Origin: Chthonomonadales bacterium | Lineage (GTDB): Bacteria > Armatimonadota > Chthonomonadetes > Chthonomonadales > CAJBBX01 | Reading direction: 5' to 3' | Assembly: GCA_027459625.1 (NCBI GenBank) | Contig: DAIDHP010000011.1 | Location: forward strand, 27,929 to 91,928 | DNA length: 64,000 nucleotides | In this document: positions 13,914 to 21,297 of the stretch, piece by piece | Numbering within the stretch: the first letter of the stretch is position 1 | Layout of the letters: the number at the start of each line of letters is the position of its first letter | Program-made: the position numbers and the translations under genes | The notes under the pieces: generated by a model | Told to the model about the DNA's origin: nothing | Databases searched by the model: none | The model's input: the letters and a program-made list of their open reading frames with translations, nothing else

Positions 13914-15878
13914 ATGAGCAATTTCATATATTACGTTCCGCTCTCGATTATCTTAGTCGCTTTGATTCTTGCGCCTCTTGTATTCGCTTTTGTGATATCC
14001 ATTGTTCGTTCCGACTACCTTTGTTCCCTGATTATCATCGTGATAGCTGCGGTTTTGGCGATTTCCTCCCTTATCCTTTTCGCGCGTGTGACGATCACGC
14101 ACCAGATCATTCACTACGCACCGGGATTGATCGACTGGAACCTTCTCGTAACGATTGCGGATTTCGGCTTGATGGCGATGTTTATTCGGATGGGCGTTCG
14201 ACGCAAAAGCGTGCTCATACTTGTATTCGCCGTCATTCAGACCATCATACTCGCATGGGTGGAGTTTGGTCCGAAGCACACGGAGATGGCGTATCCGCCG
14301 ATTTTCATCGACTGGCTTTCCATCGTGATGACGCTTATCGTATCGATAGTGGGGTCCATTGTCGCCATTTATTCGCTGCCCTATATGCGCGAACACGAAC
14401 GGCATCAAAACCTGACGGTCAGCAAGCAACCTCAATTTTTCCGCACGCTCCTGCTATTTCTGGGAGCCATGAATGGGATGGTTTTATCAGGCAATCTCCT
14501 ATGGATCTATTTTTTCTGGGAGATAACCACATTATGCAGCTTTTGCCTCATCAGTCATGACGAAACCGAGGAGTCGCTGCGTTACGCCACCCGCGCTTTG
14601 TGGATGAACATGGTGGGAGGTGTGGGGTTTATCACCGGTATCGCCCTGATACAGTTAAAAAATCTGCCGATGGACGCCAGTCGTCTCTTGCAGCTTGTGC
14701 ATACGGGTAATGAGGCGCATCTTGTCGCCCTCCTGATGCTCCCGATGGCGTGTTTATGCTTTGCGGGTTTCACCAAGGCGGCTCAAATGCCCTTCCAATC
14801 CTGGCTGCTTGGAGCGATGGTGGCGCCCACGCCGGTATCCGCACTTCTTCACTCCAGCACCATGGTGAAAGCGGGCGTCTATTTAATCATCCGTTTCGCG
14901 CCGATTTTCCGTCACACCGGCCTGAGCGAGATGGTGGCGATCGTGGGAGCCTTCTCCTTTATCACCGGTGCGATGCTCGCCATTGGTCAGTCCAACGCCA
15001 AAAAGGTCCTCGCCTATTCCACGATCTCCAATCTGGGCTTGATTATCGCATGCGCCGGATTGAACACGCCCCTCGCCTTGGCGGCGGCGGTGATGCTCAT
15101 CATCTTTCACGCGGTCTCCAAGGGGCTGCTGTTCATGGCTACGGGCGTGGTGGATCAATCCATCCACAGCAAGGATATCGAGGACATGCAGGGCTTATGG
15201 GCAAGCATGCCTTTAACATCTCTGATCATGGTGATTGGGATCCTCTCCATGCTCCTGCCGCCGTTCGGAGTGCTGATCGCCAAACTCGCCGCGATAGAAT
15301 CCTCCATCCAAAATCCTCTGGTGATGGCCATGCTTGTGATCGGCAGCACGCTCACCGTTGTATTCTGGACGAAGTGGATGGGGAGAATGCTGGCGACGAA
15401 TCCCCGAGCGGACGGACGCAAGAGGGAGAGTCTTCCCGCGCTGTATGCCGGCACATTAGCCGTCCTTGCAAGCGGAGCCGTTATTTTGAGCCTTTTTGTC
15501 AAGCCGATTCTGGAAAACCTTGTGCTTCCCGCAGTGGCGAATTATTATAACGTCGCCGGCATGGAAATGACCCCCACGGTTCTAAGCGCACCGTGGTTAA
15601 TGATATTCCTTGTTATTGCGCTCTCCGTTTTGGCCCCGACTTTCTTCAACCATCTTCGATCCAGCCAAATCAAGCCGGCGTATTTATGCGGAGAGCAGAT
15701 CGCCTCCCATTCCACAACGGCTCAGTTTTTGACCGTTGCGGATAGCGCCGCGGAGATGACGGTGCGGGGTTACTATTTTGAAAAGGTTACGGACGAGTCC
15801 GTTCATGTGAAATGGGTGACGATAGTTGCCACTCTATTGATAGTCATTCTATTTGGAGCAGTCTATCTGTGGAAATAA
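13914..15878 (+). CDS. echA: Ech hydrogenase subunit A (NuoL-like ion-pumping membrane protein)
   Basis: This 654-residue, very hydrophobic protein has about 15-16 membrane helices and belongs to the NuoL/MrpA antiporter-like family. It carries family features such as SGNLLWIYFFWEITTLCSF, PFQSWLLGAMVAPTPVSALL and HSSTMVKAGVYL (residues about 313-324), with the conserved lysine and histidine positions for proton or sodium transfer. It is the first of six genes in the order A-B-C-D-E-F, identical to the known ech operons. In the complex it would couple electron transfer between ferredoxin and protons to ion translocation across the cytoplasmic membrane. The 3' end overlaps echB by 10 nt. The Shine-Dalgarno is weak (GGATAAG). 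Confidence 0.92.
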   Translation: MSNFIYYVPLSIILVALILAPLVFAFVISIVRSDYLCSLIIIVIAAVLAISSLILFARVTITHQIIHYAPGLIDWNLLVTIADFGLMAMFIRMGVRRKSVLILVFAVIQTIILAWVEFGPKHTEMAYPPIFIDWLSIVMTLIVSIVGSIVAIYSLPYMREHERHQNLTVSKQPQFFRTLLLFLGAMNGMVLSGNLLWIYFFWEITTLCSFCLISHDETEESLRYATRALWMNMVGGVGFITGIALIQLKNLPMDASRLLQLVHTGNEAHLVALLMLPMACLCFAGFTKAAQMPFQSWLLGAMVAPTPVSALLHSSTMVKAGVYLIIRFAPIFRHTGLSEMVAIVGAFSFITGAMLAIGQSNAKKVLAYSTISNLGLIIACAGLNTPLALAAAVMLIIFHAVSKGLLFMATGVVDQSIHSKDIEDMQGLWASMPLTSLIMVIGILSMLLPPFGVLIAKLAAIESSIQNPLVMAMLVIGSTLTVVFWTKWMGRMLATNPRADGRKRESLPALYAGTLAVLASGAVILSLFVKPILENLVLPAVANYYNVAGMEMTPTVLSAPWLMIFLVIALSVLAPTFFNHLRSSQIKPAYLCGEQIASHSTTAQFLTVADSAAEMTVRGYYFEKVTDESVHVKWVTIVATLLIVILFGAVYLWK

Positions 15879-16720
15879 TTAACATATTCTTTGTTGTTGT
15901 GATCGCCCCGGTCATTGGCGGGTTGCTGTTTGGATTGGATCGAAAATTGACCGCGAGGCTGCAGAAACGGATGGGCCCGCCGATATTGCAGCCTTTTTAC
16001 GACCTGATTAAGCTTTTCGGAAAAGGCAGGATAGCGGCGAATCAATTTCAGTTGATCAGCGTATCCGTTTACATAGCCTGCACGATCCTCTCTTTGATAT
16101 TGCTGGCTACGGGGCAGGATCTGCTCGTGCTGCTATTCGTACTGGCTCTGGGTCATATCATGCTGATACTTGGGGGGTTCAGCGTCCGTTCCCCCTACAG
16201 CCAGATAGGGAGCCAGAGGGAGATACTGCAGTTGATGGCGTATGAGCCATTGCTGGTATTTATGGTGATAGGAACCTACCTGAAGACGGGCAGCTTTTTG
16301 GTATCCAACCTGATGACCGGTTCATACAAGCCTCTCTTGATCTCCCTTCCGGCGTTTCTACTGACCCAGATAATCGTTATGGCGATCAAACTGCACAAAT
16401 CCCCTTTCGATATCTCCGCATCGCACCACGCACATCAGGAGCTTGTGAAAGGGATATACACCGAGTTCTCCGGGGCGCAACTCGCCTTGATCGAAATGGC
16501 GCACTGGTACGAACTCATTCTTTTAATGGGCTTTATCGCCCTTCTTTGGCAGACGAACCTCATTATCGGCGGATTAATCGCCTTCGCCTGCTTCCTGGCG
16601 GTGATTCTTTTGGATAACATCTCCGCCAGATTAACTTGGAAATGGATGATCCGGTTCGCATGGACGTTCGGTGTTGGGATATCGGTGGCGAACCTTACTG
16701 CGATTTATATATTAAGGTGA
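15869..16720 (+). CDS. echB: Ech hydrogenase subunit B (NuoH-like membrane anchor)
   Basis: The protein is 283 residues from a GTG start at 15869 that overlaps the end of echA, with GGAG upstream at 15854-15857. It has about eight membrane helices and the NuoH/HycD signature elements: LTARLQKRMGPPILQPFYDLIK near residue 25 and SPFDISASHHAHQELVKG near residue 180, the last containing the conserved acidic or polar residues of the quinone-chamber equivalent. The translated frame extends further upstream inside echA, but the GTG start gives the family length. The subunit anchors the hydrophilic arm to the membrane and connects it to EchA. Identification is firm from sequence and gene order. Confidence 0.93.
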   Translation: MEIINIFFVVVIAPVIGGLLFGLDRKLTARLQKRMGPPILQPFYDLIKLFGKGRIAANQFQLISVSVYIACTILSLILLATGQDLLVLLFVLALGHIMLILGGFSVRSPYSQIGSQREILQLMAYEPLLVFMVIGTYLKTGSFLVSNLMTGSYKPLLISLPAFLLTQIIVMAIKLHKSPFDISASHHAHQELVKGIYTEFSGAQLALIEMAHWYELILLMGFIALLWQTNLIIGGLIAFACFLAVILLDNISARLTWKWMIRFAWTFGVGISVANLTAIYILR

Positions 16721-16727
16721 TTGTAAA

Positions 16728-16823
16728 ATGCGCTCGGCATTCTTCAATAAATGCGTTAAACACCGCCAAATGCACTTTGGGAGGATTTTGCAGTCACCGT
16801 TATTGGAAGGCTTTGCGAGATGA
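16728..16823 (+). CDS. Possible 31-residue ORF coupled between echB and echC
   Basis: An ATG at 16728 opens a 31-codon frame whose TGA overlaps the echC start as ATGA. AAGGTG, which spans the echB stop, lies 8 nt upstream as a Shine-Dalgarno. It therefore fills the only long gap in an otherwise tightly packed operon. The peptide starts MRSAFFNKCVKHRQ and is basic; I recognise no family. It may be a translational coupler for echC or an accessory peptide. Coding status is not proven. Confidence 0.4.
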   Translation: MRSAFFNKCVKHRQMHFGRILQSPLLEGFAR

Positions 16824-17242
16824 ACATACTGCAAAAATCCCGCGCCAAGTCCCCTTGGATACTGCATTACGACGCCGGGGCTTGCAACGGCTGCGACATA
16901 GAGATACTGGCGTGTCTGACTCCGGTGTATGATATCGAGCGGTTCGGGATGGTCAATGTGGGAAACCCGAAGCATGCGGACGTGCTGCTTGTGACGGGAA
17001 CATGCAACAAGCGTAGTGCGCGGGTGTTGAAAAACCTCTATGACCAGATGCCCGACCCCAAGGTTGTAGTCGCCGTGGGGGCGTGCGCTCTCTCCGGGGG
17101 AATCTTTCACGAATGTTACAACGTATTGCAAGGCGTTGACGGCACGGTACCCGTGGATGTTTACGTTCCCGGGTGCGCCGCGCGCCCGGAGGCGATTATG
17201 GAAGGGGTTATGATGGCCCTGGAAAAGATGAACCAAAGATGA
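16820..17242 (+). CDS. echC: Ech hydrogenase small subunit C (NuoB-like)
   Basis: The 140-residue protein is the small electron-transfer subunit that holds the proximal [4Fe-4S] cluster next to the nickel-iron site. Cysteine ligands are visible in ACNGCDIE (near residues 18-21), in AVGACALSGG and in VPGCAARPE, all as in NuoB/EchC. The ATG at 16820 overlaps the stop of a 31-codon ORF, and the stop overlaps the echD start (ATGATG). Both overlaps suggest coupled translation. Length and motifs agree with group 4 hydrogenases. Confidence 0.95.
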   Translation: MNILQKSRAKSPWILHYDAGACNGCDIEILACLTPVYDIERFGMVNVGNPKHADVLLVTGTCNKRSARVLKNLYDQMPDPKVVVAVGACALSGGIFHECYNVLQGVDGTVPVDVYVPGCAARPEAIMEGVMMALEKMNQR

Positions 17243-17634
17243 TGGAAACCATGGAGATCAAACCTCAGGAAATTATTGACATTCCGAATATCCGCGACGT
17301 GGATGTTTCCGAATTGCTGGACAGGGTCAAAAAAGCTGCGGACGAAAAGAGACGATTTGTGACGATGACCGCTCTGGATCGCGGGGATCATTTCGAGGTC
17401 CTTTATCATTTTGATCGGGACCTCCATTTGGAGCACCTGCGAGTAAGAGTCCCAAAGGGGCAGACACTTCCCAGCATCAGTTCCGTGTACTTAGCCGCCT
17501 TCCTGGTGGAAAACGAAATCAAGGAGCTATTCGGACTCGAAATAACCGATATCGCCATTGATTATCAAAACCACCTCTATCTCATCGAGGGAGTTGAACC
17601 GGCGCCGATGGCAAAGGATAAGCCGCTTGAATAG
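17239..17634 (+). CDS. echD: Ech hydrogenase subunit D (NuoC-like)
   Basis: The 131-residue soluble subunit is related to the NuoC 30-kDa protein of complex I. The typical C-terminal pattern is LRVRVPKGQTLPSISSVYLA followed by A-x-F-L-V-E-N-E-I-K-E-L-F-G, which is the conserved ELFGL motif. The start is ATG at 17239 (or 17242), overlapping echC. It contains no metal ligands and probably stabilises the EchC/EchE pair. The gene lies 22 nt before echE. The family assignment is clear from the ELFGLEITD stretch and the operon position. Confidence 0.92.
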   Translation: MMETMEIKPQEIIDIPNIRDVDVSELLDRVKKAADEKRRFVTMTALDRGDHFEVLYHFDRDLHLEHLRVRVPKGQTLPSISSVYLAAFLVENEIKELFGLEITDIAIDYQNHLYLIEGVEPAPMAKDKPLE

Positions 17635-17656
17635 GATGAATCGCTAGGAAAAAAGA

Positions 17657-18736
17657 ATGTCAAACAGAACAGTAATACCTTTCGGCCCTCAGCACCCCGT
17701 CCTTCCCGAGCCGATTCAATTGAAATTGGAGTTGCAGGATGAGACCGTGGTGAGCGCCATTCCCCATATCGGCTATGTGCATCGAGGAATCGAGAAAGCT
17801 GCGGAGCGCATGGAATACACTCAGAACGTATTTCTAGTGGAGCGCGTTTGCGGCATCTGCAGCTTTATTCACGCCCTCTGTTATTGCCAAGCGATCGAGC
17901 AGTTGCAAAACATCGAAGCTTCTCCTCGCGCAAAATATCTGCGGGTGATTTGGAGCGAATTGCATCGTCTTCACAGCCACCACCTGTGGCTAGGACTTTT
18001 CGCGGACGCCTTCGGCTACGAGAGCCTCTTCATGCAATTTTGGCGCAACCGCGAGATGCTGATGGATATCTTCGACAAGACCGCGGGCAGCCGGGTGATC
18101 ATCTCCACCTGCGCCATCGGCGGCACAAGGAGGGATATCAGCGATGTCCATCTCCAGGAGATACTGGATACGCTCGACGAAGTGGAAAAACAACTCGACA
18201 AGACACTCCCCGTCATCCTTAATGATTATACGGTCAAAAAACGCACTGTCGGAATTGGAAAGATAACCCGGGAACAGGCTCTGGAACTTGGAGCGGCAGG
18301 ACCGGTGTTGCGCGCCAACGGGGTGGCGCAGGATATGCGACAACTGGGTTACGCCGCCTACGGGGAGCTTGGCTTTGAACCTGTGACGGAAAACGACGGC
18401 GACTGCTACGCCAGAGCGAAAGTGCGCGCCAGAGAGTGCTACCAAAGCGTGGAGTTGGTGCGAAAAGCCATTCGGCAGTTGCCAGACGGGGAGATTCTAA
18501 CCAAACCCAAGGGGAGGCCGAAAGGTCAGGTTATCTCCCGGGTGGAGCAGCCGCGAGGAGAATTGCTCTACTTTCTATCGGCGGACGGAACGAACCGGTT
18601 GGACCGGCTGCGTATTCGCACCCCCACCTTCGCAAATGTGCCCCCATTGGTGGCGATGCTCCCAGGATGCGAGCTGGCGGATGTTCCAGTAATCGTGCTC
18701 TCCATAGACCCATGCATCAGCTGCACGGAGAGATGA
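17657..18736 (+). CDS. echE: Ech hydrogenase large subunit E, [NiFe] catalytic (NuoD-like)
   Basis: The 359-residue protein is the catalytic subunit of a membrane-bound group 4 [NiFe] hydrogenase. Both nickel-ligand motifs are intact: RVCGICSFIH near residues 63-72 and DPCISCTER at residues about 351-359, at the extreme C-terminus. Having both separates it from complex I NuoD, which has lost them. The protein ends right after the second motif, so no C-terminal peptide cleavage by a maturation protease is expected, as in Ech enzymes. AGGAAAAAAG precedes the ATG at 17657. No hyp maturation genes lie in this window. The reaction is H2 evolution or uptake with ferredoxin through EchF. Confidence 0.96.
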   Translation: MSNRTVIPFGPQHPVLPEPIQLKLELQDETVVSAIPHIGYVHRGIEKAAERMEYTQNVFLVERVCGICSFIHALCYCQAIEQLQNIEASPRAKYLRVIWSELHRLHSHHLWLGLFADAFGYESLFMQFWRNREMLMDIFDKTAGSRVIISTCAIGGTRRDISDVHLQEILDTLDEVEKQLDKTLPVILNDYTVKKRTVGIGKITREQALELGAAGPVLRANGVAQDMRQLGYAAYGELGFEPVTENDGDCYARAKVRARECYQSVELVRKAIRQLPDGEILTKPKGRPKGQVISRVEQPRGELLYFLSADGTNRLDRLRIRTPTFANVPPLVAMLPGCELADVPVIVLSIDPCISCTER

Positions 18737-18760
18737 ATGAAAGAAACCGGAGGACACTCC

Positions 18761-19114
18761 ATGATAAATAACGTGCTTTCCAACCTGTTTTCCAAACCGG
18801 CGACGCGAGACTTCCCGGCGAAAATGCGCGAAATCGCCGAGAACGTGCGTGGCTCGGTGGAGTTCAACACAGAAAACTGCGTGTATTGCGGCGCGTGCGC
18901 ATTAAAATGTCCCGCAAACGCCATCGAGGTGGATCGACCCGCCAAGAAAGTCACCTTCGATCTGTACAAATGCGTGGCGTGCGCCTGTTGCGCGGAGGCT
19001 TGCCGCAAAGGGTGCATCCAGATGGCGAAGCAATACGCGCATCCCTCCTACCGAAAGATGGATGTCGTATTCCAAGGCGAGCCTCTTTTAACGGATGCAA
19101 ACGGCGATTCTTAA
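18761..19114 (+). CDS. echF: Ech hydrogenase subunit F, 2[4Fe-4S] ferredoxin
   Basis: The 117-residue polyferredoxin subunit has two [4Fe-4S] binding motifs: NCVYCGACALKCPANAIEV at about residues 38-56 and KCVACACCAEACRKGCI at about 67-83. It would receive electrons from soluble ferredoxin and pass them to EchC. I place the start at the ATG at 18761, which has GGAGGA 6 nt upstream, rather than at an in-frame ATG 24 nt earlier that lacks one. It is the last gene of the ech operon; the following 344 nt carry no terminator of obvious strength. Confidence 0.93.
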   Translation: MINNVLSNLFSKPATRDFPAKMREIAENVRGSVEFNTENCVYCGACALKCPANAIEVDRPAKKVTFDLYKCVACACCAEACRKGCIQMAKQYAHPSYRKMDVVFQGEPLLTDANGDS

Positions 19115-19168: not shown

Positions 19169-19184
19169 TGGCATGCCTTTTGCA
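19169..19184 (+). promoter_or_regulatory. Sigma-54 promoter, upstream copy
   Basis: TGGCATG-N4-TTGCA matches the -24/-12 consensus (TGGCAC/T-N5-TTGCA/T) with exact spacing. It lies 290 nt upstream of the first PEP-CTERM gene, 145 nt before a second site of the same type. Confidence 0.7.
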
Positions 19185-19313
19185 GTATGTATATGTGTGT
19201 GCGTTTGCTACGCTGATCCGACGATGGATTTGACCAGCCTTATGAGCCGTAGAAAAGCCGCTTTTTGGCTTTCCCTGATAATTTTTCTTGTTTTTTCGGG
19301 TAATCGGGGATTT

Positions 19314-19329
19314 TGGCACGCTACTTGCA
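19314..19329 (+). promoter_or_regulatory. Sigma-54 promoter, proximal copy
   Basis: TGGCACG-CTAC-TTGCA is a perfect -24/-12 match, including the GG and GC doublets with correct spacing. It is the closest promoter to the PEP-CTERM gene starting at 19459. An RpoN-dependent activator is implied but no gene for one is in the window. Confidence 0.85.
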
Positions 19330-19458
19330 CTATACTCATATGGGAGTAAACCGAGAAGGCGAATTCGCAGTGACGATCCGTTCAGGCTTTCTCTATACAT
19401 TTTTGTGGGGGACACCCCCTCACGCCACAGAGGACACTCACAGGAAGGAGAGTTATAA

Positions 19459-20148
19459 ATGATGCAAAGTTTTAAGAAATTGATTATCGGGCTTGCAGCC
19501 CTTTTGTTGTTGACGGTAGGACATTCAGCAAATGCAGTGACGTTGGACACACTTTTAAGTGGAGGAACCATTACATCGGGGAACTTGACTTTTGGTAACT
19601 TCTCTTATACTGATAGTGCAAACTTGTCCGTCCCAGCCTCGACAATAAATGTAATTCCAATACAACAGCCTTTTTCTAAGACATATGGATTGGAATTTAG
19701 CGGCTCTTGGGTTACAAGTACGACCCCGGTCACTGCTGATTATACTATTTCCTATACTGTAACCGCACCCACCGCAACTATTGATGATTACGAACTGAAT
19801 ATGACGGGAGCTATAATAGGTACTCCACCAACAGGACAAATAACAATCGCTGAGAACGCCATAGATCAAAATAATAACGGATTGGCATCTATCGGTACAG
19901 CATTAGCCTATAATGGTTCATATACACCAACATTGTCTATATTAAGTGCCAAAGGGTATTTTCCCTTGCAGTCAAAGCTTTTAATAAATAAAAACATCAA
20001 TATTTCAAATGGTGCAGGCACTATTACACACCTATCGGTTGTAGATCAAAACTTCTCACAAGTTCCGGAGCCGAGCGCTTTGATGATGCTCTTCGGATCG
20101 GGCATCTGCGGAAGCCTGTTCTTCCTGCGAAAGAGGAGCGTCGCCTAA
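19459..20148 (+). CDS. PEP-CTERM sorted exported protein (first of two paralogues)
   Basis: The 229-residue protein has a signal peptide (KKLIIGLAALLLLTVGHSANA) and a C-terminal PEP-CTERM sorting signal: VPEPSALMML, a hydrophobic helix, then the basic tail FLRKRSVA. The exosortase EpsH/XrtA-type system would recognise it and process it at the membrane. The middle is Thr/Ser/Asn-rich and probably beta-rich. It starts with LLSGGTITSGNLTFGNFSY, which is nearly repeated in the protein at 20482, so the two are paralogues. Start is ATG 19459 (or 19462), with AAGGAG about 10 nt upstream. Expression is predicted to be sigma-54 dependent. The likely place is the outer surface or matrix; the function is unknown. 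Confidence 0.88.
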   Translation: MMQSFKKLIIGLAALLLLTVGHSANAVTLDTLLSGGTITSGNLTFGNFSYTDSANLSVPASTINVIPIQQPFSKTYGLEFSGSWVTSTTPVTADYTISYTVTAPTATIDDYELNMTGAIIGTPPTGQITIAENAIDQNNNGLASIGTALAYNGSYTPTLSILSAKGYFPLQSKLLINKNINISNGAGTITHLSVVDQNFSQVPEPSALMMLFGSGICGSLFFLRKRSVA

Positions 20149-20191
20149 TTCGGACGGACACCAAGGATTTATACGCCTTCTCCCCTAAACT

Positions 20192-20222
20192 CTCCCGCCT
20201 TCTCTGTGGCGGGAGTTTTTTT
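20192..20222 (+). terminator. Strong rho-independent terminator of PEP-CTERM gene 1
   Basis: CTCCCGCC pairs perfectly with GGCGGGAG over an 8-nt loop, followed by seven T residues. The stem is the same sequence as in the terminator after the second PEP-CTERM gene. Confidence 0.92.
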
Positions 20223-20338
20223 GCGCGGGTAAGAGGGAAATGGACATGCAATATTCCCCGGTTACCTTCTCCAAGCGATCCGCACCTCACCATCGTATTA
20301 TTGCCTGATTTTCAAATATTGCCGTTTTGACAACTTTA

Positions 20339-20354
20339 TGGCATGCATTTTGCT
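20339..20354 (+). promoter_or_regulatory. Sigma-54 promoter of PEP-CTERM gene 2
   Basis: TGGCATG-CATT-TTGCT fits the -24/-12 consensus with correct spacing. It is 128 nt upstream of the start codon at 20482, similar to the promoter-start distance of the first gene. The stretch 20223-20338 before it shows no gene and may hold activator sites. Confidence 0.8.
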
Positions 20355-20481: not shown

Positions 20482-21222
20482 ATGCGAAAAACATGCTTGT
20501 TGACAATCGGTTTGGCTACGGTCATGATGCTATCGGTCGGGTTGACCGCTAATGCGGCTTCATTGACCTTATATGACCTGTTAACCCCTGGCTCAACCAT
20601 CACATCGGGGAATTTAACGTTCTCCAACTTCAATTTCTCCGGGGGTTCTCTGCCCGACTACATCACTGATGCGGATGTGGAGAACAACATAACGGTATCT
20701 CCCTATGCGAACCAAACTGGCTCGGGGTTGGATTTCAACATGATGCCACAATCCAACATGTTTTGGTTCTTATCGAATTTGGCGTATAACAATGCCAACA
20801 TATCCTGGGGGTATGATGTTTCATCCGATCGAATACTCTCCAACGCTTTGACCTACAATTGGATTTTGTTCGGGGCTTCAGGCGGATCGAATGGTACGGG
20901 GAGCGTCGATTTGACGGAAACCGCTACCAACAACAATAACACTCTCTCAGACTTGTCGCTGTCAACCACAGTTTCGTCGACGGTTGGCATCAACGGGACA
21001 TCCATCACTGCATCTTCCCCGAATATACCAGCCCCCGCCAATTACTCGCCGTATTCCATGTTGCATGTGGATAACAACCTCGCATTCACATCCAATAATG
21101 CGGCTATCACATTAGGCCATATAGATGAAACCTTCGTACCGGAGCCGAACTCCCTGACAATGCTGCTTGGATTGGCTGTTTGTGTCAGCCTGGTCTTCCC
21201 GAGGAAGAGGAGCGTCGCCTAA
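20482..21222 (+). CDS. PEP-CTERM sorted exported protein (second paralogue)
   Basis: The 246-residue protein has a signal peptide (LLTIGLATVMMLSVGLTANA) and a C-terminal PEP-CTERM signal (VPEPNSLTMLLGL, hydrophobic helix, then FPRKRSVA). The mature N-terminus, LLTPGSTITSGNLTFSNFNF, matches the neighbouring paralogue. The rest is Asn/Ser/Thr-rich with little charge. The start is the ATG at 20482 with AAGGAG 9 nt upstream; a longer in-frame ORF begins at 20338 but would include the sigma-54 promoter. The gene has its own promoter and terminator, so the pair is not an operon but a duplicated transcription unit. The function is unknown; the shared N-terminal domain defines a small family. Confidence 0.88.
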   Translation: MRKTCLLTIGLATVMMLSVGLTANAASLTLYDLLTPGSTITSGNLTFSNFNFSGGSLPDYITDADVENNITVSPYANQTGSGLDFNMMPQSNMFWFLSNLAYNNANISWGYDVSSDRILSNALTYNWILFGASGGSNGTGSVDLTETATNNNNTLSDLSLSTTVSSTVGINGTSITASSPNIPAPANYSPYSMLHVDNNLAFTSNNAAITLGHIDETFVPEPNSLTMLLGLAVCVSLVFPRKRSVA

Positions 21223-21263: not shown

Positions 21264-21297
21264 ACTCTCCCGCCTACTCCGTGGCGGGAGAGTTTTT
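21264..21297 (+). terminator. Strong terminator of PEP-CTERM gene 2
   Basis: ACTCTCCCGCC pairs with GGCGGGAGAGT across an 8-nt loop, followed by T residues. It ends a few nucleotides before the convergent pfkB-type gene. Confidence 0.9.

Follow-up and report, generated by a model that had tools for sequence, protein, structure and literature searches.

The best-known cases in which sigma-54 is served by a single activator and without enhancers are those of Chlamydia and Helicobacter, where CtcC and FlgR, respectively, activate without enhancer contact. Both proteins have been described as activators that lack a DNA-binding domain (type Ic in the available text of PMC3162934; for CtcC, also the available text of PMC7482065), and since about 4% of the activators surveyed in PMC3162934 lack a DNA-binding and/or a signal domain, the architecture itself is not new. 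For the proteobacterial PrsK/PrsR system, the available text of Haft et al. (2006; PMC1569441) describes an enhancer motif 1 of 17 nt, which has the 3′ end TTTACA and lies about 63 nt upstream, together with a PrsR of the Fis type, and reports that, among the species compared there, the motifs were common only to Proteobacteria. In Aquincola, the RpoN dependence of the PEP-CTERM gene pepA has been measured (PMC9850573, available text).

We compared these systems with a locus in a window of 64,000 nucleotides from a Chthonomonadales bacterium (GCA_027459625.1, contig DAIDHP010000011.1, positions 27,929 to 91,928). A pattern scan combined with PEP-CTERM models confirmed the proposal of an earlier, sequence-only reading that three exact TGGCAYG-N4-TTGCW sites, designated P1, P2, and P3, precede PEP-CTERM genes with exact spacing. 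As summarized in Table 1, all three lie on the + strand; the window holds no other exact match, and the −24/−12 spacing is standard at each of them, with 10 nt from GG to GC. Allowing up to one mismatch gave five matches in the window versus a shuffle mean of 1.44, and five were reached in 2 of 100 shuffles. P1 and P2 are 145 nt apart and end 274 and 129 nt, respectively, before the ATG of gene 1, while gene 2 has a single site, P3, which ends 127 nt before its ATG.

Table 1. Features of the tandem-promoter locus and the two PEP-CTERM genes (window positions; C11, contig coordinates)
Feature	Sequence	Position	Strand	Evidence
P1, distal tandem sigma-54-type −24/−12 site of gene 1	TGGCATGCCTTTTGCA	19169..19184	+	exact consensus match; retained in G131
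P2, proximal tandem sigma-54-type −24/−12 site of gene 1	TGGCACGCTACTTGCA	19314..19329	+	exact consensus match; retained in G131
5′ leader of gene 1 after P2		19330..19458	+	two-sequence alignment, strongly conserved between species
Gene 1, PEP-CTERM protein, 229 aa		19459..20148	+	PF07589 27.8 bits, TIGR02595 19.1 bits
Gene 1 PEP-CTERM sorting signal (VPEP, hydrophobic stretch, RKR)		20059..20136 (= C11:47987-48064)	+	PF07589 genome scan
Terminator-like hairpin and T run 3′ of gene 1		20192..20215	+	consensus scan
P3, sigma-54-type −24/−12 site of gene 2	TGGCATGCATTTTGCT	20339..20354	+	exact consensus match
Gene 2, PEP-CTERM-like protein, 246 aa		20482..21222	+	ORF; VPEP, hydrophobic stretch, RKR
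Gene 2 PEP-CTERM sorting signal		21136..21195 (= C11:49064-49123)	+	PF07589 genome scan
Terminator-like hairpin and T run 3′ of gene 2		21264..21293	+	consensus scan

Gene 1 scored above the cut-offs of both PEP-CTERM models (20.7 bits for PF07589 and 16 bits for TIGR02595). With PF07589, gene 2 reached 16.1 bits in a single-protein scan, in which a TIGR02595 match was absent, and 20.8 bits in the genome scan, which includes neighbours in frame, against the same cut-off of 20.7. The two genes are paralogues with 32% identity, and since each is followed by a terminator-like hairpin, each looks like a transcription unit of its own. Upstream of the pair, a gene cluster at 13914-19114, the end of which is 54 nt from P1, has translations that resemble, by eye, a membrane-bound NiFe hydrogenase/complex-I-like set whose last gene encodes a ferredoxin.

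The tandem promoters that had been pointed out before gene 1 proved to be conserved in a second species. In the orthologue of gene 1 in the sister species (G131), both sites are present with a spacing of 149 nt, at distances of 279 and 130 nt from the start. In the alignment of the window with this species, the P1-P2 spacer is strongly diverged; the two cores, as well as the stretch leading from P2 to the start, are conserved. This pattern is the best evidence we have that the tandem arrangement serves a function rather than having arisen by accident. The conservation of the leader after P2 also raised the suspicion of a structured RNA, a candidate that was rejected: no Rfam family was found in 19330-19458, the only match (15.9 bits, threshold 80) lying elsewhere in the stretch, and the folding energy of 19336-19470 was ordinary (z −0.64). 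As judged by eye from two sequences, a short hairpin at about 19405-19423 in this leader seems to be kept through a G-U to A-U change.

The genome searched comprises 4.55 Mb in 114 contigs and is 96.55% complete. It yielded 16 exact consensus matches versus 2 in a reversed-pattern control, and 101 versus 41 when up to one mismatch was allowed; the gene context was examined for 100 of these 101 sites. The consensus was derived from the three window sites, so that the 13 exact sites outside the window constitute the independent test, and 6 of these 13 are followed by PEP-CTERM genes. Overall, 9 of the 16 exact sites precede PEP-CTERM genes (8 genes). At least 84 one-mismatch sites were listed, 57 of them inside ORFs of at least 150 aa and 27 outside such ORFs, and 9 of the 27 precede PEP-CTERM genes. 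Since the 57 sites within ORFs are probably due to chance, any single one-mismatch target is weak.

Starting from the genes, a PF07589 scan of the genome at E up to 10 returned 14 loci, 9 of them over the cut-off, and a site with 0 or 1 mismatch on the coding strand was located just upstream of 12 of the 14. Because E up to 10 is loose for this model, which at that setting also matched 13 of the 14 control genomes, though nowhere over the cut-off, the loci over the cut-off were counted separately, and 8 of those 9 have the site. At the site density of this genome, the chance of 12 of 14 is about 1e-28, and that of 10 of 12, with the window genes excluded, about 1e-23; the enrichment before other PEP-CTERM genes that had been suggested as a check on the sequence-only reading is thus present. 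An alignment of the genome's own PEP-CTERM C termini (A1) found 18 loci below E 0.001, and these loci, C47, and C49:25058 make up an extended list of 20 PEP-CTERM genes. An upstream sigma-54-type site accompanies 17 of the 20, a count that is partly circular because the A1 C termini were partly picked for having a site; the independent figure is 12 of 14. The remaining three genes showed no weaker site with a position matrix, their best scores being 11.8, 1.0, and −2.0 versus 22.3 to 32.2 for the training sites; this matrix of 18 sites consists of a T-rich lead, TGGCATG, four weakly fixed bases, and TTGCA or ATGCA. One PEP-CTERM gene (C16:33460-34709, with the one-mismatch site C16:33669 upstream) is split into several frames in the assembly and was included in the 12 and the 17 on the basis of its PEP motif and the distance of its first piece to the site. 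Near this broken gene, a DUF1559 prepilin-like gene with its own exact site runs in the opposite direction.

The other seven exact sites were found before a bacterial sugar transferase gene, a glycosyltransferase cluster (assigned by eye, its first gene having no Pfam match), a REC-PilZ gene, a DUF1559 prepilin-like gene, and a gene for a membrane protein (by eye; no Pfam match), as well as 435 nt away from a glycosidase-like ORF and within an opposing ORF. Behind one-mismatch sites lie, in addition, a glycosyltransferase gene, a gene for a Wzx-like flippase, one for a Wza-like export protein that carries SLBB domains, and one whose 614-aa product has no Pfam match.

The genome also contains predicted machinery for such sites. 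One RpoN was found, whose presence had likewise been proposed as a check (TIGR02395, 317.9 bits; cut-off, 277.35), and it carries AID, CBD, and DBD domains. A genome scan with PF00158 gave seven matches, a single one of which was strong and spanned the full domain (246.5 bits), the others scoring at most 33.6. This activator is a protein of 403 aa in which a receiver (REC), a sigma-54 AAA+ domain, and a lid are followed by the stop; HTH_8 (PF02954, the Fis-type DNA-binding domain) was not found in it. Ending as it does after the AAA+ domain, it is without the usual DNA-binding domain, and since the same protein, again of 403 aa and with the same end, occurs in two near relatives, MAG MAS4.bin79 and G131, the short end is not an assembly error. 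A second activator could sit in the sequence missing from this 96.55% complete genome. The contact loop of the activator reads NAFTGA rather than GAFTGA. The adjoining gene encodes a kinase of the composition GAF-GAF-PAS, HisKA, and HATPase, in which no clear membrane segment was seen (the top 19-residue hydropathy, 1.67, falls in the second GAF region). Between the activator and REC-PilZ genes lies an exact sigma-54-type site, 20 nt past the activator stop and 86 nt before the REC-PilZ start. Three PF09721 matches over the cut-off represent exosortases in this genome.

In a homologue search with the activator over 5.8 billion proteins, 7998 candidates were scored, 5968 were within E 1e-100, and the best 120 of these were examined. 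The best 120 of the 5968 homologues are 346-429 aa in length, and PF02954 is annotated in none of the 120. Six of the 120 are taxon-named, and all six are from Armatimonadota (Chthonomonadales, Chthonomonadaceae, Armatimonadetes, Armatimonadota), which agrees with the earlier impression of an Armatimonadota-like genome. Following a GNVREL-type motif, 28-60 residues remain in the 114 measurable proteins of the best 120, compared with 88-128 residues in named homologues outside the close relatives (40 measurable of 45). Likewise, HTH_8 was detected in 0 of 22 clade proteins in an alignment (A3) taken from the best 120, this activator included, and in 22 of 22 controls chosen from 80 named homologues, all outside the close relatives. 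The loop was NAFTGA in 69 of the best 120 homologues, GAFTGA in 27, and SAFTGA in 2, with 22 unmatched; among the 22 activators that were aligned, its F, T, G, and A never vary. Over the activator clade, we observed mostly NAFTGA, with GAFTGA and GSFTGA elsewhere.

Across the phylum, matches to the activator were present in 102 genomes, and 30 loci, one per genome, were taken from 30 of them. The short C-terminal end was seen in 27 of the 29 measurable activators, the long ends coming from G002 and G016. Of 29 loci read, 10 have a site with at most one mismatch within 200 nt past the activator gene, and these 10 belong to families f1, f2, f6, and f8. Nine receiver-like neighbours were tested; all nine are REC-PilZ proteins, and eight of the nine have a site after the activator gene. 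At most of the remaining activator loci, the neighbour is of another kind or is too short. Within the order (families f1-f3), RpoN is present in 12 genomes, every one of which has PEP-CTERM genes and a single activator match at E 1e-60. Of the 8 genomes in which RpoN is absent, none matched the activator, and PEP-CTERM genes occur in 2; these activator counts per genome rest on the best candidates scored, at most 12 in each.

Can these sites be explained otherwise? One explanation is that a true PrsK/PrsR system of the proteobacterial type was acquired horizontally and acts via enhancer sites upstream of each promoter. The target class and the sigma factor are indeed the same as in Proteobacteria (PMC1569441, available text), and the activator does match the PrsR model TIGR02915 with 387 bits. 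This score, however, is below the cut-off of 502.6, and the AtoC (494) and NtrC (449) models score higher. With the PrsK model (TIGR02916), the best protein in the genome reached 92.5 bits and the neighbour kinase 79.6, against a cut-off of 300; the prsR and prsK homologues that the sequence-only reading had proposed to look for were therefore not recovered at these cut-offs, and the activator is without the Fis domain. PrsR scoring covered the activator and seven homologues from the named-homologue list, with known PrsR proteins outside the scored set, and none of the seven passed the PrsR cut-off; the nearest named homologues beyond the phylum come from Bdellovibrionaceae, Rokuibacteriota, and deltaproteobacteria, at 50-57%. 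Of the proteobacterial enhancer motif, the search covered the 3′ end, TTTACA; on the coding strand, a single one of the 23 upstream regions contained it (expected, 1.4), and 4 of 23 did when both strands were considered. Moreover, the 156 nt before the 23 sites contained no shared upstream element except A/T runs when 6-8 k-mers and simple dyads were compared with shuffles. A homologous PrsK/PrsR system was rejected on the basis of the activator, kinases, and homologues scoring below the cut-offs and of no shared enhancer being found among the words and simple dyads searched, and we regard such a transfer as very unlikely.

The same upstream regions bear on another explanation, in which the sigma-54 promoters are real and a separate DNA-binding partner recruits the activator, so that control would be promoter-specific and enhancer-based. 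Nothing direct speaks for such a partner; in its favour are the AT-rich DNA before many sites and the A/T runs, the one kind of word more frequent than in shuffles. Against it, no common 6-8 k-mer or simple dyad beyond these runs was found at the 23 sites in a search of short ungapped words and simple dyads; a partner of this kind appears unlikely to us. Alternatively, the matches might be due to chance or serve another purpose, with ordinary sigma-70 promoters driving the genes. A sigma-70-like match (10 of 12) does exist at 20500-20528, inside gene 2, and is among three such matches in the region, where shuffles gave 3.7. This explanation is opposed by the genome-wide enrichment of the sites before PEP-CTERM genes, by the retention of the two tandem cores in G131, and by the finding that neither gene has an upstream sigma-70-like match at the scan threshold, and we consider it extremely improbable.

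We consider it likely, instead, that the sites form a genome-wide promoter set, comprising those of 17 of the 20 PEP-CTERM genes and of several exopolysaccharide genes, and that the only RpoN found, together with the only clear activator found, which lacks the usual DNA-binding domain, fires all of them at once. Judged from sequence, the best reading is that of a separately recruited sigma-54 switch for a PEP-CTERM/exopolysaccharide matrix. Such a switch would resemble the proteobacterial PrsK/PrsR in that PEP-CTERM units, mostly of one gene each, lie behind sigma-54-type promoters, and in having a two-component activator of the NtrC type, an exosortase, and a link to exopolysaccharide genes. 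It would differ from PrsK/PrsR in that, here, the curated cut-offs yield no PrsR or PrsK, the search for an enhancer element found none, the one clear activator of the genome is without a DNA-binding domain, and the phylum is a different one. With the CtcC/FlgR type it shares a regulatory domain joined to a sigma-54 AAA+ domain and no helix-turn-helix; unlike for CtcC and FlgR, the phylum is another, the predicted targets are PEP-CTERM and exopolysaccharide genes, and activation from solution is what we propose. The predicted regulon, being one of surface and exopolysaccharide functions, also accords with the view of sigma-54 as a controller of the bacterial exterior in the available text of PMC3162934.

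In the mechanism that we propose, the GAF-GAF-PAS kinase would phosphorylate the 403-aa REC-AAA+ activator, and the phosphorylated activator, acting from solution and with no need of an enhancer, would engage RNA polymerase-sigma-54 at all of these promoters. Specificity would rest on the single activator and on the placement of the −24/−12 sites, and transcription of gene 1 would have two sigma-54 start points, owing to its tandem promoters. The product of the REC-PilZ gene, which is itself predicted to belong to the regulon, may link the matrix with c-di-GMP. For the order as a whole, we see an even balance for and against the wider proposition that sigma-54 is now dedicated to the matrix, that a lone activator which has lost its DNA-binding domain fires all sigma-54 promoters at once, that this scheme came about independently of PrsK/PrsR, and that c-di-GMP is joined in through the switched-on REC-PilZ protein.

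If this reading is true, sigma-54 control of PEP-CTERM proteins arose more than once with different regulators, which would suggest a functional reason for the pairing; a multi-megabase environmental genome would provide an example of enhancer-less, single-activator sigma-54 control; and the gene list would name probable matrix-building genes of a phylum that has been little studied. Neither exosortase nor PEP-CTERM is mentioned in the main text of PMC3162934 or in that of a sigma-54 survey of 16 phyla (PMC12316311). Among the open-licence papers listed, titles and abstract openings revealed no report of such an arrangement; in the same part of the literature, nothing was found for Armatimonad together with rpoN, and Armatimonad together with PEP-CTERM led to a LuxI/LuxR survey.

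Among eight relatives, exact sites preceding HMM-supported PEP-CTERM genes numbered 5 of 12 in G131, 6 of 14 in G036, 2 of 7 in G141, 3 of 15 in G067, 3 of 16 in G114, 3 of 9 in G057, 0 of 10 in G007, and 0 of 12 in G126, that is, 22 of 95 in sum, and three more were obtained with a looser pattern. G007 has RpoN, yet none of its 10 sites precedes a PEP-CTERM gene; in G126, which has 28 PEP-CTERM matches, RpoN was not found. In G114, a Pfam-confirmed exosortase gene (L360:297-1241) lies 80 nt behind an exact sigma-54 site, and the ORF behind the site at L234 (G062) ends, by eye only, like this exosortase.

The phylum set consisted of 151 genomes, counted regardless of kinship, of which nine with weak partial RpoN matches were set apart by hand. 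The 95 genomes with RpoN contained 621 exact sites (control, 143), and 90 of the 95 had PEP-CTERM genes; the corresponding values were 81 sites (control, 50) and 22 of 47 for the 47 genomes without RpoN, and 20 sites (control, 7) and 3 of 9 for the nine genomes with weak matches. In family f1, each of the four genomes with RpoN combines PEP-CTERM genes with a site excess, and both are lacking in the five without RpoN. However, a site excess was not seen in 14 genomes in which RpoN is accompanied by at least 20 PEP-CTERM genes, and the top-scoring PEP-CTERM genes across the phylum had an upstream site in 0 of 29 readable loci (one further locus was unreadable). The latter result ruled out a phylum-wide sigma-54/PEP-CTERM rule, and both indicated that the link belongs to some lineages and not to the phylum. 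The suggestion that the sigma-54/PEP-CTERM logic extends more broadly than Proteobacteria is thus upheld as to a similar logic, while the parts are different and the link is not phylum-wide.

The C-terminal ends of the site-less PEP-CTERM proteins of the phylum (L245-L274, of the ALLGLGLA...RRRK type) look unlike the sigma-54-linked ends of this genome, hinting at two classes of sorting signal with different control. Lastly, the weak partial RpoN matches (about 40-80 bits) come from ORFs of about 430-590 aa, for instance in G033, G063, G065, G073, and G025, and suggest a second, divergent sigma-54-like family that occurs beside full RpoN or alone.
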